Part shown: in pieces, positions 19,917 to 50,226 of the stretch | Numbering within the stretch: position 1 is the stretch's first letter | Layout of the letters: every line of letters starts with the position of its first letter | Origin: Desulfomicrobium escambiense DSM 10707 | Lineage (GTDB): Bacteria > Desulfobacterota > Desulfovibrionia > Desulfovibrionales > Desulfomicrobiaceae | Assembly (NCBI RefSeq): GCF_000428825.1 | Contig: NZ_AUAR01000001.1 | Location: 62,001 to 126,000 of the forward strand | Reading direction: 5' to 3' | Length of the DNA: 64,000 nucleotides | The notes under the pieces: model-generated | Database searches by the model: none | Told to the model about the DNA's origin: nothing | The model's input: the letters and a program-made list of their open reading frames with translations, nothing else | Made by a program: the position numbers and the translations under genes

Positions 19917-19927
19917 GATCGAAATTA

Positions 19928-20284
19928 CGGAGCCGGACGATAAGCCGGATTCTGTTCCCGTTGCCGGGCGGCTGTCATTCCTCTAGGGCGGCGGTTGCCC
20001 GCCGTCTCCAGCAACCTACCCGAAGGATATCGACCGGGCCGGTCACCTTCCTATTTGGTCTTGCACCGGATGGGGTTTACCTAGCTTGCCGCGTCACCGC
20101 GACAACTGGTGGGCTCTTACCCCGCCTTTTCACCCTTACCCCGGCCGCGAGGCCTGGGCGGTCTGTTTCTGTGGCACTGTCCCGGGGTTACCCCCGCTGG
20201 ACGTTATCCAGCATCCTGCCCTGTGGTGTCCGGACTTTCCTCCCCCGGCCTTGCGGCCGGCGGCGACAGCCTGTCCGGCTCCGT
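19928..20284 (-). ncRNA. rnpB: RNase P RNA (class A)
   Basis: About 356 bases. Read on the minus strand it opens CGGAGCCGGACAGGC and contains the conserved GAGGAAAGTCCGGAC block. GGTGAAAAGGCGGGGTAAGA, ATAGGAAGGTGACC and AGAATCCGGCTTA follow in the canonical order. It closes with GTCCGGCTCCG, which pairs with the 5' end as helix P1. It is the catalytic RNA that matures tRNA 5' ends. It sits only about six bases after the zinc-ribbon gene and about 12 before ispDF on the same strand, with no terminator between, so it is probably cut from a longer transcript or started inside the upstream gene. Confidence 0.95.
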
Positions 20285-39775: not shown

Positions 39776-42112
39776 TCAGGCGGGCCACAGCAGAGGCAGA
39801 AGCCAGACCGAAACGAGCAGCGAGATGACGGTCAGCGGCACACCGACCTTGACGTAGTCGGTGAACCTGTATCCGCCCGGTCCCATGACCAGCAGGTGGG
39901 CCGGGTGGGACAGGGGGCTGGCGAAGCTCGACGAGGCGGCGATGGCCACGGTCATCATCAGGAGCTGCGGCGAGATGCCCAGACTTGCCGCAGCGCCCAG
40001 GGCCACCGGGGCCATGAGCACCACCAGCGCCGCCGTGGGGATGACCTGGGTGCCCAGCACCGTCACCCCGAAGAGCGCGGCCACCACCCAGCGCGGGCCC
40101 ATGTCCCCGACCAGGGCGATGAGGGCCTCGGCCCCCATCTGCGCCGCCCCGGTGTTCTGGATGGCCACCCCCAGGGGGAGCATGCTGGCGATGAGGAAGA
40201 CGACCTTCCATTCGATGGCCTGGTAGGCCTCCTCCATTTTCAGGCAGCCGGTCACGACCATGACCGCCACCCCGGCCAGGGCGGCGATCGCGATGGGCGC
40301 CAGGCCCAGGATGGCGCTGCCCAGCACGGCGACCATGACGGCCGCGGCCAGGGGCGCCTTGTGCAGGCGTGGGGCCTGGGCCGCGGCCTGGTCCAGGACC
40401 AGGAAGTCGTCGTCGCGGGCCACTGCCTCCAGGCTCTGGCGCGGGCCGTAGACCAGCAGGGCGTCGCCGAACTGCAGGGGCATGTCCTGCAGGCCCGCGC
40501 GGGCGGGCCGCCCCTTGCGCAGGACGGCCAGGACGCTCAGGCCGTAGTGGTCCCGGAAGAGCAGATCGTTCAGGGTTTTCCCGGCCAGGGTCGTCCGCGG
40601 CGAGAGCAGCACCTCGGCCATGCCGATCTGCTGCGATTCCAGTTCGGCGGCCAGCCGCGAAGACTGCTCGGAGATTTCCAGGTCCTGCAGCCCCTCGAAG
40701 ACGTCGATGTCCCGCTTCAGCCCCTGGACCACCAGCAGGTCGCCGGCCCGCACGGTTTCCTCCGGGGCGGGCAGGCAGGTCACGTCGTTGCCGCGCACCA
40801 GTCCCACCACGGTCAGGCCGAAGGCGTTGCCCAGGCGGCTTTCAATCAGGTTGCGGCCGGCCAGGGCGGACCCTTCGGGCACCCGCACGGAGCAGAGGCT
40901 GAGTTCCTCGCACGCGGGCGTCCCGGCCGGGGCCTGCGTTACGGGCGTCAGGCCCTCGACGAGCCCCTGGCCGGCCAGGCGCTCCAGGGCCGCGCGTTCG
41001 CCCTGCAGCACGAGACGGTCCCCCTCCTGGAAACGATGGCGGCGAAAATCCCCCAGGCATTCTCCCGAAGGCGCGCCCAAGGCCAGGACGTGCACGCGGT
41101 GGTCGCGGCGCAGTCCGCTTTCGGCCAGGGTCCTGCCGACGAGGGACGAGCCCTTGCCGATGAGCCCCGTAACGACCTCCAGCCGGTCCGCGACTTCCCC
41201 GGTCTGCGGCCCGTCCGGCTCGACCCGCAGGTGGCGACTGCCGTGGAAGCGGCTGACCTGGTCCGTCTGGCCGTGGACGATGACCAGGTCGCCGGCCTGC
41301 AGGGTTTCCTGCGCCCTCGGGGCGAGGATCAGCTCCCCGGCGCGGTGCAGGCCCACCACCGTCAGGTACAGGGCCGAGCCCAGGCGGCTCTCGGCCAGGC
41401 TACGGCCCACCAGGGGCGAGGCCGGCGGCAGTTCGATGGAGAAGACGTGCGCCCCGATCTCGTAGGACGACTCGATGGCGCCCTTGTCCCGCCCAGACCC
41501 CGCCCCCTTGGGCAGCAGGCGCAGGCCCACGACGACGGTGAAGGCGATGCCGGCCACGACCAGGGCGGCGGTGATGGGCGTGAAGTCGAAGAGGGCGAAG
41601 GGGGTGAGGCCCGCGGCGCGCAGGGCGTCGGTGGCCAGGATGTTCGGCGGCGTGGAGATGCCCGTGAACGGCCCGCCGAGCAGGCACCCAAGGGCCATGG
41701 GCATGAGCAGGCGCGCGGGCGGCCGGCCGCTGCGCCGCGCCAGGTCCATGGTCGCGGGCATGAGGATGGCGGCCACGGTGGTGGTGTTGATGAGGGCCGA
41801 GAGGATGCTGGCCGCGGTCATGAGGGCGACGACCAGCACGGCCTCGCTCCCGCGGGCGAAGTGCTGGAGGGGCTGGCCGATGCGGTAGGCCACGCCCGTG
41901 CGGGTCAGGCCGGCCGAGAGGATGAACATGGCCCAGACGGTGATGACGGCGGGGCTGCTGAACCCGGCCATGGCCTCCTCCGGGGAGACGAGGCCGGTCA
42001 GGGCCAGGGCGGCCAGGACCATGAGGCCGACCACGTCCACGGGCAGCCAGCCGCCGATGAACAGCACCAGGGCGGTGAGGACGATGACGAGGAGGATGAC
42101 GAGAGGCAGCAT
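39776..42112 (-). CDS. SLC13/DASS-type transporter with four RCK_C domains
   Basis: 778-residue inner-membrane protein. Membrane helices occupy about 1-205 and 580-778, with SLC13-like hairpin motifs (INTTTVAAILMP, GGPFTGISTPPNI, and HPAHLLVMGPGGYRF near the end). The central cytoplasmic part contains four consecutive TrkA-C (RCK_C) domains, each with the pattern L.GR.L.ES.L....L.V......G....L.......GD.L.V.G; most relatives have two. Likely substrates are anions such as sulfate or dicarboxylates; sulfate would suit the organism, but this is inference. It is transcribed alone. Confidence 0.88.
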   Translation of the reverse strand: MLPLVILLVIVLTALVLFIGGWLPVDVVGLMVLAALALTGLVSPEEAMAGFSSPAVITVWAMFILSAGLTRTGVAYRIGQPLQHFARGSEAVLVVALMTAASILSALINTTTVAAILMPATMDLARRSGRPPARLLMPMALGCLLGGPFTGISTPPNILATDALRAAGLTPFALFDFTPITAALVVAGIAFTVVVGLRLLPKGAGSGRDKGAIESSYEIGAHVFSIELPPASPLVGRSLAESRLGSALYLTVVGLHRAGELILAPRAQETLQAGDLVIVHGQTDQVSRFHGSRHLRVEPDGPQTGEVADRLEVVTGLIGKGSSLVGRTLAESGLRRDHRVHVLALGAPSGECLGDFRRHRFQEGDRLVLQGERAALERLAGQGLVEGLTPVTQAPAGTPACEELSLCSVRVPEGSALAGRNLIESRLGNAFGLTVVGLVRGNDVTCLPAPEETVRAGDLLVVQGLKRDIDVFEGLQDLEISEQSSRLAAELESQQIGMAEVLLSPRTTLAGKTLNDLLFRDHYGLSVLAVLRKGRPARAGLQDMPLQFGDALLVYGPRQSLEAVARDDDFLVLDQAAAQAPRLHKAPLAAAVMVAVLGSAILGLAPIAIAALAGVAVMVVTGCLKMEEAYQAIEWKVVFLIASMLPLGVAIQNTGAAQMGAEALIALVGDMGPRWVVAALFGVTVLGTQVIPTAALVVLMAPVALGAAASLGISPQLLMMTVAIAASSSFASPLSHPAHLLVMGPGGYRFTDYVKVGVPLTVISLLVSVWLLPLLWPA

Positions 42113-46061: not shown

Positions 46062-48905
46062 ATGGGTCAACACGATATTTTCGATCGGACGGCGTCCTTC
46101 GAAGCATTGCCGGCCGCCGAGGTCTGCCGGGCCATGGGCAGCGGTCCCGACGGTTTGGGCACGCCGGAGGCCGCGGCGCGCCTGGCCCGCTTCGGGCCCA
46201 ACACCATCGCCGTCGCCCGCAACGCGTCTCTGCCGCTCAAGTTTCTGGCCAACTTCACGCACCTCATGGCCATGCTCCTCTGGATCGCCGGTTTTGTGGC
46301 CATCTTTGCCCGTATGCCGCAGCTCGCCTTCTCCATCTGGGCCGTGAACGTCATCAACGGGGCGTTCAGCTTCTGGCAGGAGTACAAGGCCGAGAAGGCC
46401 ACCGAGGCCATGCGCCGGATGCTGGACGAGAAGGCGAGCGTCGTGCGTGGCGGCGAGATCCTGCTGGTCGATGCCGTCACCCTCGTGCCGGGGGATGTCC
46501 TGGTGCTTGCGGAGGGCTGTCGGGTCTGTGCCGACGCGCGGCTTATCGAGTCCGCAGACCTGCGCCTGGACCAGTCGACCCTGACGGGCGAGTCGCGAAG
46601 CGTCCTCAAGACCCACGGGGCGGTCGCCGGCCGGGGCATGTCGCGGCTGGAGACCCCGAACGTCGCCTTCGCCGGGACGAGCGTGGTCTCGGGCACGGGC
46701 CGGGGCGTGGTCTTCGCCACGGGCATGGACACCGAGTTTGGGAAGATCGCCGGCTTCACTCAGGGCATCGCGGAGGAGCTCTGTCCTCTGCAGAAGGAGA
46801 TGCGCCGGGTCACGCGGGTCGTCACGGTCATCGCCGTGTGTTCGGGGTGCGTGTTCTTCCTCCTGTCCGTCCTGCTGGCCGGCATGGACTGGGCCGAAGG
46901 ACTCGTTTTCGGCATGGGCATGATCGTCGCCTTCGTGCCCGAGGGGCTGCTGCCGACCGTAACCCTGTCCCTGGCCATGGGCGTGCAGCGCATGGCCGGA
47001 CGCAACGCTCTGGTCAAGCGCCTCTCGGCCGTGGAAACCTTGGGCTGCGCCTCGGTCATCTGCACGGACAAGACCGGGACCCTGACCCAGAACGAGATGA
47101 CGGTGCGCGAGATCTGGCTGCCCGGCGTCCCCGAGGGTGATGCCCTGCGCGTCACGGGCACGGGGTACGCCCCGGACGGCGGCATGTGGCGCGGCGACGA
47201 AGCGGTGGAGGTTCCCCGCGGTGGCGGCTTGCACGCGCTGCTGCTTTCCGCCGGGCTGTGCACCAACGCCCGCTTGCAGCCGCCCGGCGAAGGCAGTTCA
47301 CGTTGGACGGTCATCGGGGATCCGACGGAGGCGGCCCTGCGGGTGGCGGCCCTGAAGGCGGGCGTCGATCTGGCCGTCGAGGAGCGGGCCACGCCCAGGT
47401 TGCGCGAATTGCCCTTCGACTCCAGGCGCCGCCGCATGAGCACCGTGCACCGCGGCGACGGCGAGACCCTGGTCCATGCCAAGGGCGCGCCGCGGGAGGT
47501 GCTGGAACTCTGCACCCGGATGCTCGCGGGCGGGGACGAGAGGCCCCTGGACGAGCCCGCCCGCGCCCGCATCATGGGCGCGGGCGACGGCTTCGCCCGT
47601 TCGGGACTGCGGGTCCTGGCCGTGGCCAGGCGGACCGTGCGCGGCGAAGGGCTTGCCTGCGCCGATCTTGGCCGGTTGCCGGCCGGGGACGTCGAGGCGG
47701 ACATGACGTTTCTGGGCCTCGTGGCCATGATGGACCCGCCCCGGCCCGAGGTCGAGGAGGCCGTGGCCACGTGCCGTCGGGCGGGCATCCGCATTGTCAT
47801 GATCACCGGGGACTACGGCCTGACGGCCGAGAGCGTGGCGCGCCGCATTGGTATCATCCGGGACGGGCGGGACGGGCGGGACGGGCGGGCGCGCATCGTC
47901 AGCGGCGCGGACCTCGACGGCATGGACGAGGCGGCCCTGGACGATGCCCTGAGCGGGGAGGTCATCTTCGCCCGCGCCGCCCCGGAGCACAAGCTGCGCA
48001 TCGTTTCGGCCCTGCAGCGGGCGGGGCACGTGGTGGCCGTGACCGGCGACGGAGTCAACGACGCCCCGGCCATCAAGAAGGCCGACATCGGCATCGCCAT
48101 GGGCCTCTCGGGCACCGACGTGGCCAAGGAGGCGGCGGACGTCATCCTCACGGACGACAATTTCGCGACCATCGTCGGCGCCATCGAGGAAGGCCGCGCC
48201 GTCTTCGCCAACATCAAGAAGTTCACGACATACATCTTCACGAGCAACACCCCCGAGGCCGTGCCCTTCATCCTTTTCGCCCTGAGCGGCGGGCGCATCC
48301 CCCTGGCCCTGAACGTCATGCATATCCTGGCCGTGGACCTGGGCACGGACCTGCTGCCGGCCCTGGGCCTGGGCGCGGAAAAGGCCGAGGCGGGCCTCAT
48401 GGACCGACCGCCCCGAAACCTGCGCGAGCACGTCATCACCCCCGGCCTTCTGGCGCGGGCCTACCTGTTCCTGGGGCCGCTGCAGAGTCTGGCGGTCATG
48501 GCCGCCTTCTATTTCCTGTACTGGACCAATGGACATTGGGGCCAGTGGCTCGACCTGCCGTCCGCCGGCCCGCTGTACGAGTCCGCCACGGCCATGGCCC
48601 TGGCCTGCGTCGTGACGACCCAGATCGGCAACCTTTTTGCCCAGCGCACGGAGCGGGCGTCGTCGCTGCGGGTCCCGGCCTTCGGCAACCGCCTCCTGTG
48701 GCTCGGGGTGGCCAGCGAACTGGCCGTCGTCGCGGCCATCGTCCACTGGCCGCCGGCCCAGAGGCTGGTCGGGACAGGACCGTTTCCGCTCTTCAACTGG
48801 CTGTTCCTCTTCGCCTGGACGCCGCTCCTCCTGCTGGCCGACGAGGCCAGGAAATGGGTGCAGCGCCGGATTGAGAAAACCAAGCATACGGGAGTCGTCA
48901 CATGA
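46062..48905 (+). CDS. P2-type cation-transporting ATPase
   Basis: 947 residues with the full P-type architecture: actuator TGES (175-178), phosphorylation site CTDKTGTLTQ (Asp336), nucleotide domain with HAKGAP, and hinge TGDGVNDAPAIKKADIG. Ten membrane helices are expected, with the ion-site motif FVPEGLLPTVTLSLA in M4, as in Na+,K+/Ca2+-type P2 pumps. The ion cannot be fixed from sequence. A 9-base tandem repeat at 47861-47887 encodes RDGRDGRDGR in the nucleotide/phosphorylation domain. The start is chosen at ATG 46062 (MGQHDIF), although its Shine-Dalgarno is weak. The stop overlaps the first RCK gene by four bases. Confidence 0.9.
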   Translation: MGQHDIFDRTASFEALPAAEVCRAMGSGPDGLGTPEAAARLARFGPNTIAVARNASLPLKFLANFTHLMAMLLWIAGFVAIFARMPQLAFSIWAVNVINGAFSFWQEYKAEKATEAMRRMLDEKASVVRGGEILLVDAVTLVPGDVLVLAEGCRVCADARLIESADLRLDQSTLTGESRSVLKTHGAVAGRGMSRLETPNVAFAGTSVVSGTGRGVVFATGMDTEFGKIAGFTQGIAEELCPLQKEMRRVTRVVTVIAVCSGCVFFLLSVLLAGMDWAEGLVFGMGMIVAFVPEGLLPTVTLSLAMGVQRMAGRNALVKRLSAVETLGCASVICTDKTGTLTQNEMTVREIWLPGVPEGDALRVTGTGYAPDGGMWRGDEAVEVPRGGGLHALLLSAGLCTNARLQPPGEGSSRWTVIGDPTEAALRVAALKAGVDLAVEERATPRLRELPFDSRRRRMSTVHRGDGETLVHAKGAPREVLELCTRMLAGGDERPLDEPARARIMGAGDGFARSGLRVLAVARRTVRGEGLACADLGRLPAGDVEADMTFLGLVAMMDPPRPEVEEAVATCRRAGIRIVMITGDYGLTAESVARRIGIIRDGRDGRDGRARIVSGADLDGMDEAALDDALSGEVIFARAAPEHKLRIVSALQRAGHVVAVTGDGVNDAPAIKKADIGIAMGLSGTDVAKEAADVILTDDNFATIVGAIEEGRAVFANIKKFTTYIFTSNTPEAVPFILFALSGGRIPLALNVMHILAVDLGTDLLPALGLGAEKAEAGLMDRPPRNLREHVITPGLLARAYLFLGPLQSLAVMAAFYFLYWTNGHWGQWLDLPSAGPLYESATAMALACVVTTQIGNLFAQRTERASSLRVPAFGNRLLWLGVASELAVVAAIVHWPPAQRLVGTGPFPLFNWLFLFAWTPLLLLADEARKWVQRRIEKTKHTGVVT
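47861..47887 (+). repeat. Three exact copies of a 9-base unit within the ATPase gene
   Basis: GGACGGGCG repeats three times in frame and encodes Asp-Gly-Arg triplets in a surface loop of the ATPase cytoplasmic domain. It is a likely slippage-made insertion. Confidence 0.8.
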
Positions 48906-49552
48906 GATACGTCATCGTCGGTTGCGGAAGGATGGGCGAGGGGCTGGCCCTGGCCCTGCGCCGCGGGGGGCACGACGTCGCCTTCGTGGACGACGGCTCC
49001 GGCGCGTCGGAGGGGCTCGAACCGTCGCTGCGCGGGCGGTTGGTCGCGGGAGGGTGCTTCGACCGGGGCACCCTGGTCCGTGCCGGCATCGAACAGGCCG
49101 ACGGGCTGGCGGCCGTGACGGGCAGCGACGAGATCAACGTGGTCGTCGCGCGGTTGGCCCGCCTTGTCTTCCGCGTCCCCAGGGTGGTGGCCGGCCTGCA
49201 CGACCCGCAGAACGCGGAGCTCTACCGCCGGCTCGGCGTGCAGGTCGTCGCGCCTTTCGACTGGGCCGTCAACCGCATCGCCGACCTGCTCCTCTATGCG
49301 GAGTCCGAAGTTCTGGCGAGCCTGGGCGACGGTCAGGCCGAGATCGTGTGCTTCCCCGTCCCGCCACCCCTCGAAGGCCGCAAGACGGGGTACCTGACGG
49401 TCTTCGGCGAGATGCACGTCGTGGCCGTGGGCAGGCGGGGACGGATTCTGCTGCCGTCGTCCGAAACGGCGTTCGAGCGCGACGACACCGTCTACGTCGC
49501 CGTGCTGCGCGAATCCTCGGAGCGGCTGCGCTCCATTCTGGCCCTGACGTGA
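48902..49552 (+). CDS. RCK (TrkA-type) NAD-binding regulatory protein 1
   Basis: 216 residues. An N-terminal Rossmann fold (YVIVGCGRMGEGLALAL, GxGxxG) covers 1-135, followed by an RCK_C domain (about 140-216). RCK proteins bind nucleotides (NAD(H), ATP or ADP) and gate K+ channels or transporters. Here the gene starts within the end of the P-type ATPase (ATGA overlap) and no TrkH/KtrB or channel gene is nearby. This suggests that it regulates the pump or acts in trans on a distant K+ transporter. Confidence 0.88.
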   Translation: MRYVIVGCGRMGEGLALALRRGGHDVAFVDDGSGASEGLEPSLRGRLVAGGCFDRGTLVRAGIEQADGLAAVTGSDEINVVVARLARLVFRVPRVVAGLHDPQNAELYRRLGVQVVAPFDWAVNRIADLLLYAESEVLASLGDGQAEIVCFPVPPPLEGRKTGYLTVFGEMHVVAVGRRGRILLPSSETAFERDDTVYVAVLRESSERLRSILALT

Positions 49553-49560
49553 GGTGAGCC

Positions 49561-50226
49561 ATGAAGAAGGTGATCATCGTGGGCGGGGGAAAGGTCGGGA
49601 CGCACCTGGCGACGCTGCTGCTGGCCGGGGGGCATCAGGTCCGGATCATCGAGCGCCATGCCGGGGAACTCCGGGCCTTGCACGAGGCGCTGCCGGCCGG
49701 GTGCGTCGTGACCGGCAGCGGCGCCGACCCGGCCGTGCTGGAGGCCACGGGAGTGAGAGACGCCGACGTCCTGGCGGCGGTGACCGGTACGGACGCCACG
49801 AACCTGGTGGCCACGAGCCTCGCGCGCTTTGAATTCAGCGTCCCGCGCACCATCGCCAGGGTCAAGGACCCGGCAAACGGCTGGATGTTCACGCCGGCCA
49901 TGGGCGTGGACGCAGCCGTCAACCAGGCCGGGCTCATGGCCCAGCTCATCGCCGAGGAGATGTCCCTGGGCGGCATGACGACCCTGCTCAAGCTCTCCAA
50001 GGGCGATTGCTCCATCGTTGAGCAGACCGTGCACCCGCAGGCGCCGGCCGCGGGGAAGAGGATCGTGGAGCTTGCCTTCCCAGCCGAGTGCATCCTGGTC
50101 GCCGTGCTGCGTGGCGGGCAGATGGTCATCCCCCACGGCGAGACCGTGCTCGTGGCGGGCGACGAAGTCATCGCTCTGGTGCACAAGTCCGCGGCGCAGG
50201 GGCTGTCGCGGATTCTCGGGGAATGA
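49561..50226 (+). CDS. RCK (TrkA-type) NAD-binding regulatory protein 2
   Basis: 221 residues with VIIVGGGKVGTHLATLL as the Rossmann GxGxxG motif, an acidic residue at the end of strand 2 (RIIERH) and a complete RCK_C domain (about 140-221; GKRIVELAFPAECILVAVLRGG). It is closer to canonical TrkA/KtrA than its neighbour. It is eight bases after RCK1 with GAGGTGAG as ribosome site. The two RCK proteins may form a hetero-oligomeric ring. Confidence 0.9.
   Translation: MKKVIIVGGGKVGTHLATLLLAGGHQVRIIERHAGELRALHEALPAGCVVTGSGADPAVLEATGVRDADVLAAVTGTDATNLVATSLARFEFSVPRTIARVKDPANGWMFTPAMGVDAAVNQAGLMAQLIAEEMSLGGMTTLLKLSKGDCSIVEQTVHPQAPAAGKRIVELAFPAECILVAVLRGGQMVIPHGETVLVAGDEVIALVHKSAAQGLSRILGE

Follow-up and report, generated by a model that had tools for sequence, protein, structure and literature searches.

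An RCK gene pair encoded with a Na,K-ATPase-like P2-type pump as its putative nucleotide-sensing controller

RCK rings are usually viewed as gating K+ channels and channel-like transporters, acting on TrkH or KtrB dimers or on channel tetramers, and P2-type pumps as single catalytic subunits whose regulation comes from small membrane subunits or from autoinhibitory tails at the termini. In Thermotoga maritima, TM1088A and TM1088B form a hetero-octameric TrkA ring (3l4b) with AMP present in the A subunit and anchored there by Arg105 of TM1088A, and survival at low K+ requires both TM1088 and TM1089 (PMC4380455). The separate, overlapping genes of that ring, one A-like and one B-like, are its point of likeness to the RCK1/RCK2 pair described here. 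In Escherichia coli, non-phosphorylated EIIA-Ntr inhibits Trk via TrkA and stimulates KdpD (as stated in PMC3665714). Among the P-type ATPases, the alpha subunit of the Na,K-ATPase (P2C) is the best match in both sequence and fold to the pump encoded beside RCK1 and RCK2, with the catalytic site and the ion-site residues compared in M4–M6 and M8 shared between them. KdpFABC (P1A) resembles that pump in its ATP-driven transport of K+ by a P-type ATPase, which would also be the task of the pump described here, but belongs to another P-type class and uses a channel-like KdpA.

The window analysed, a stretch of 64,000 nucleotides from Desulfomicrobium escambiense DSM 10707, contains a trio of genes with the following features:

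46062..48905, + strand: P2-type ATPase, Na,K-ATPase-like, 947 aa, with the full Pfam P2 set and the phosphorylation motif DKTGT
48902..49552, + strand: RCK1, 216 aa, TM1088A-like, with TrkA_N and a weak TrkA_C, GCGRMG...D30
49561..50226, + strand: RCK2, 221 aa, TM1088B-like, with TrkA_N and TrkA_C, GGGKVG...
48902..48905, + strand: ATGA stop/start overlap of the ATPase and RCK1, 4 bp

The coordinates confirm the tight arrangement described in the initial annotation, in which the ATPase stop overlaps RCK1 by four bases and RCK2 follows after an 8-bp gap. A GGGAG sequence 5' of the ATGA overlap is a possible ribosome-binding site. Position 46062 as the start of the ATPase gains support from locus L017, whose corresponding frame permits no earlier ATG or GTG. 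No sigma-70 promoter was found at the locus, and terminator-like sites occurred at no more than chance level. On the upstream side of the trio a multi-PAS histidine kinase is encoded divergently, and on the downstream side lie YkuD L,D-transpeptidases (Pfam). Pfam searches of these flanks found no TrkH, KtrB or channel gene, and the earlier remark that the RCK proteins have no K+ channel beside them therefore holds. Two genes from the trio lies a CitMHS/DASS-type transporter with four TrkA_C domains (39776-42112, minus strand).

The ATPase was used as a query against 84,980 species genomes, and the frames of the best 80 relatives were extracted and then searched for RCKs. In 44 of these 80 relatives (44/74 resolvable), RCK genes follow directly downstream with the order unchanged; these consist of 41 complete ATPase-RCK1-RCK2 loci on the same strand and three that end at a contig end, where RCK1 is present and RCK2 is partial in one. 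A further 22 of the 80 pumps possess an N-terminal extension of ~140-156 aa, described below as an EIIA domain, and no RCK genes, while eight have neither RCK nor EIIA. The remaining six were set aside, as the contig ends inside the ATPase or the N-terminus is missing; locus L093, a candidate for the RCK- and EIIA-free group, was dropped for its missing N-terminus. Given that eight relatives keep the ATPase with neither module, the pump can do without RCK or EIIA.

RCK-positive loci were found in Desulfobacterota, Chloroflexota, Binatota, Geobacteraceae, Actinomycetota (Coriobacteriia, Acidimicrobium) and Bacillota (Schleiferilactobacillus, Bacilli), and the -4 overlap seen in the window recurs in Desulfomicrobium, Desulforhabdus, Chloroflexi, Binatia, Geobacter and Schleiferilactobacillus loci. 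When 297 genomes of the window's own phylum were sampled separately, with some overlap with the first set, 16 members of the subfamily emerged, five with the RCK pair (the window being one), eight with the EIIA extension, two with neither and one truncated. None of 13 more distantly related P2 ATPases from that phylum carried the RCK pair or EIIA. A weak EIIA match was seen at a further, low-scoring locus, L182. Around the trio loci no conserved neighbours were found besides the trio genes. The three-gene order recurs more often than chance would allow, and the module is both old and conserved; the conservation whose absence would have told against the initial reading proved to be wide.

The N-terminal extension of the RCK-less pumps corresponds to PTS_EIIA_2 (PF00359), with E-values as low as 2.8e-29 among five members searched against Pfam. 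The aligned EIIA histidine is present in 22/22 fused pumps (loci L056, L057, L061, L063, L074, L075, L080, L082, L084-L088, L090-L092, L095-L097, L101, L105 and L109). Within the sample, the RCK pair and the EIIA fusion were never found together on the same pump. The domain on these sister ATPases is the point of likeness to the control of TrkA and KdpD by EIIA-Ntr (PtsN). However, the known EIIA-Ntr is a free protein, whereas the sister pumps carry an N-terminal domain and the window pump is without it. The EIIA-fused pumps form a single, fully supported clade of the ATPase tree, with the RCK-linked pumps filling the remainder; being confined to one clade, the EIIA alternative counts as one event. 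The occurrence of either of two K+-linked modules on one pump subfamily supports a putative regulated K+ role.

We consider it probable that the trio encodes a K+ (perhaps Na+/K+) pump with its own nucleotide-sensing RCK1/RCK2 hetero-ring as controller. In this arrangement the trio would act as a single functional unit, with the ATPase moving K+ inward, perhaps against Na+ or H+, using ATP. RCK1 and RCK2 would form a cytosolic hetero-ring of the TM1088A/TM1088B kind that binds adenine nucleotides and switches the pump on or off, a role parallel to that of TrkA and KtrA rings on channel-like transporters. In the sister lineage, a fused EIIA-Ntr-like domain would serve as the regulator in place of the ring. 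We infer the contact between ring and pump and the stoichiometry of the ring on the pump, as well as which nucleotide is bound and which ion is moved in which direction. The geometry of a ring on a single-subunit pump counts against ring control. The more specific proposal, that a nucleotide-sensing hetero-octameric RCK ring gates a K+ (or Na+/K+) P-type pump that replaces Trk/Ktr uptake in some bacteria, and that the sister lineage of the pump exchanged the ring for a fused EIIA-Ntr domain, is put forward tentatively, its chance falling somewhat short of even.

Among open-licence papers, no report was found of RCK/TrkA proteins paired with a P-type ATPase, or of EIIA fused to one. If true, a dedicated RCK ring on a pump would widen the fields of both RCK proteins and P2 pumps, and would suggest a K+ supply route for certain bacteria that have none of Trk, Ktr, Kup and Kdp. 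It would also represent a bacterial Na,K-ATPase-like enzyme with a regulator that can be added or removed at will.

The pump possesses the P-, A- and N-domains, the DKTGT motif and the Cation_ATPase_N and Cation_ATPase_C domains of a P2-type ATPase, both by Pfam and in the structure model. D336 is the expected site of phosphorylation. Its ion-site residues are V289, A290 and E294 in M4, Y724, S728, N729 and E732 in M5, D759, T762 and D763 in M6, and Q854 in M8. Across the subfamily alignment E294, S728, N729, E732, D759, T762, D763 and Q854 are invariant or nearly so, and they align in that order with the Na,K-ATPase ion ligands E327, S775, N776, E779, D804, T807, D808 and Q923. The pump scored 598.5 bits with TIGR01106 (the Na,H/K model), below the cut-off of 946.1, and no SYGQ beta-subunit motif was found in the pump alignment. 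It is therefore described as Na,K-like and not as a member of that family. Among the neighbours of the trio there is likewise no beta gene, and the pump differs from the Na,K-ATPase in being adjoined by RCK partners instead.

The preference for the Na,K model over the Ca2+ pump model is modest (598 vs 576 bits), and an alternative has to be weighed in which the RCK pair does control the pump but responds to nucleotide or energy state and not to the K+ economy, the pump itself exporting Ca2+ (or Mn2+). PMR1- and SERCA-type models score near the Na,K model, and LMCA1 (Z 38.3), SPCA and SERCA are close in structure. The nearest family and structure is nevertheless the Na,K-ATPase (Z 42.7), and D759 and Q854 are as in that enzyme, whereas in paralogues of the same family position 759 is N and position 854 is E or Q. 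The M4 motif is also PEGLLP, unlike the PEGLPA of the paralogues, and RCK and EIIA-Ntr are both linked to K+. A Ca2+ (or Mn2+) exporter is therefore considered unlikely, and the ion-site residues and K+-linked regulators point to inward movement of K+ as the most likely activity of an RCK-controlled pump.

The cytosolic C-terminal tail has a median length of 16 residues in RCK-linked pumps vs 9 in EIIA-fused pumps, a difference that amounts to a single comparison, given that all EIIA-fused pumps belong to one clade. Trio-specific pump residues yielded nothing convincing as a docking site. No ydaO, Na+, Li+ or Mg2+ riboswitch was found in 30 trio or related loci nor in the window.

Both RCK proteins keep the GxGxxG nucleotide motif, in a TrkA_N domain of the GxGxxG...D/E type. 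By Pfam, the TrkA_C domain scores 25 bits in RCK1, just short of the cut-off of 27, and 52 bits in RCK2, which also has the signature R100-V-x-x-P-x-N-x-W-x-F ... GVD. The RCK1 profile scores TM1088A above TM1088B and the RCK2 profile TM1088B above TM1088A, with TrkA halves scoring above both. The best match of the RCK1 model was the TM1088A chain of the hetero-octamer (Z 18.4, rmsd 2.4 over 121 residues). RCK1 exceeds TM1088A in length and is modelled with a C-terminal alpha/beta lobe; over 203 residues the model aligned to TrkA with a high rmsd, probably through differing placement of the two lobes. Assembly of RCK1 and RCK2 into an octameric ring would follow by homology to 3l4b only. Residue 98 of RCK1 (window 49193-49195), the likely counterpart of TM1088A Arg105, is Arg in most RCK1 proteins, but the window copy and its two closest relatives have Gly at this position. 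This lost arginine and the modest preference for Na,K over Ca2+ models count against the reading of an RCK-controlled K+ pump.

The membrane partner of the TM1088A/TM1088B ring is the TrkH homologue TM1089, whereas the gene adjoining RCK1 and RCK2 is that of a P-type ATPase, and no TrkH, KtrB or K+ channel gene takes its place. The initial annotation had offered, as an alternative, that the pair serves a distant channel. The window genome (3.78 Mb, estimated 100% complete) contains three TrkH genes, all of them directly adjoined by an RCK gene of their own, and two Ion_trans_2 channels with an RCK within the same frame. One further RCK is part of a 684-aa frame that probably encodes a Kef-type fusion, and KdpA and Kup are absent from the genome. 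The trio RCKs are the sole RCK pair in the genome without a TrkH or channel partner, and therefore no orphan TrkH remains that would need them.

Across other genomes, TrkH and KtrB are absent from 15/23 that carry the trio, and 13 of these 15 have no Ion_trans_2 match either, which means that the ring cannot in general serve Trk, Ktr or a 2TM channel. In nine of those 13 channel-less genomes, no TrkA_N match above 31 bits was found besides those of the trio RCKs. TrkH, KdpA and Kup are all absent from six draft genomes of unestimated completeness (L035, L036, L050, L083, L099 and L104). Service to a distant TrkH, KtrB or K+ channel, with the ATPase merely co-transcribed and both contributing to K+/Na+ balance, would be the usual job of RCKs. 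It could draw on the three TrkH genes of the window genome and on a TrkH that adjoins the trio in Acidimicrobium. Against this stand the adjacent RCK that each TrkH of the window genome already has and the retention of the pair by the pump where TrkH, KtrB and Ion_trans_2 are missing. RCK1 and RCK2 also fall in clades separate from the sampled TrkH- and channel-associated RCKs. A distant client is thus contradicted by these data and considered quite improbable.

The Acidimicrobium region (L081) runs from ~8.5 kb before the ATPase end to 1.4 kb past it; directly upstream of the trio it contains this TrkH, a single RCK gene and two double-RCK genes of the TrkA type. The same neighbourhood is also counted in favour of the RCK-controlled K+ pump. 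At L099, a 166-aa 2TM K+ channel gene on the minus strand converges on RCK2, 1347-1845 bases past the ATPase end.

In a tree that includes the other RCKs of the same genomes, all RCK2 proteins form one clade, as do all RCK1 proteins once L095 is excluded. The L095 RCK, from an EIIA-fused NC10 locus, had been collected by position and sits ~0.9-1.6 kb past the ATPase end. It was rejected as an RCK partner of that pump, as this RCK, in a 330-aa frame, groups with K+-channel RCKs. The RCK trees match the ATPase tree, with pairwise distance correlations of 0.95 for ATPase-RCK1 and 0.90 for ATPase-RCK2, to which shared vertical descent contributes. In a Mantel test of ATPase-RCK1, the maximum among 999 label shuffles was 0.32 vs the observed 0.95. 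The RCK-less pumps without EIIA fall in four small groups of the ATPase tree (Bryobacterales with another Acidobacteriota; a Pelobacter; a Chloroflexales; two Lactobacillaceae), where absence of the RCKs reads most simply as loss. The earlier proposal that an RCK hetero-ring controls the P-type pump gains support from this co-inheritance and from the lack of other clients, the contact itself being presumed. That the gene order reflects chance shuffling of operons with no function is scarcely credible, for while the RCKs are missing in eight relatives and unrelated genes are common in operons, order and orientation are kept over several phyla with no other conserved neighbour and with matching trees.

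At the Roseiflexus locus L039, a second P-type ATPase (38% identical) is located directly after RCK2, 1358-4091 bases past the end of the first ATPase. The window also contains an RNase P class A RNA gene (19925-20282, minus strand, 311 bits).
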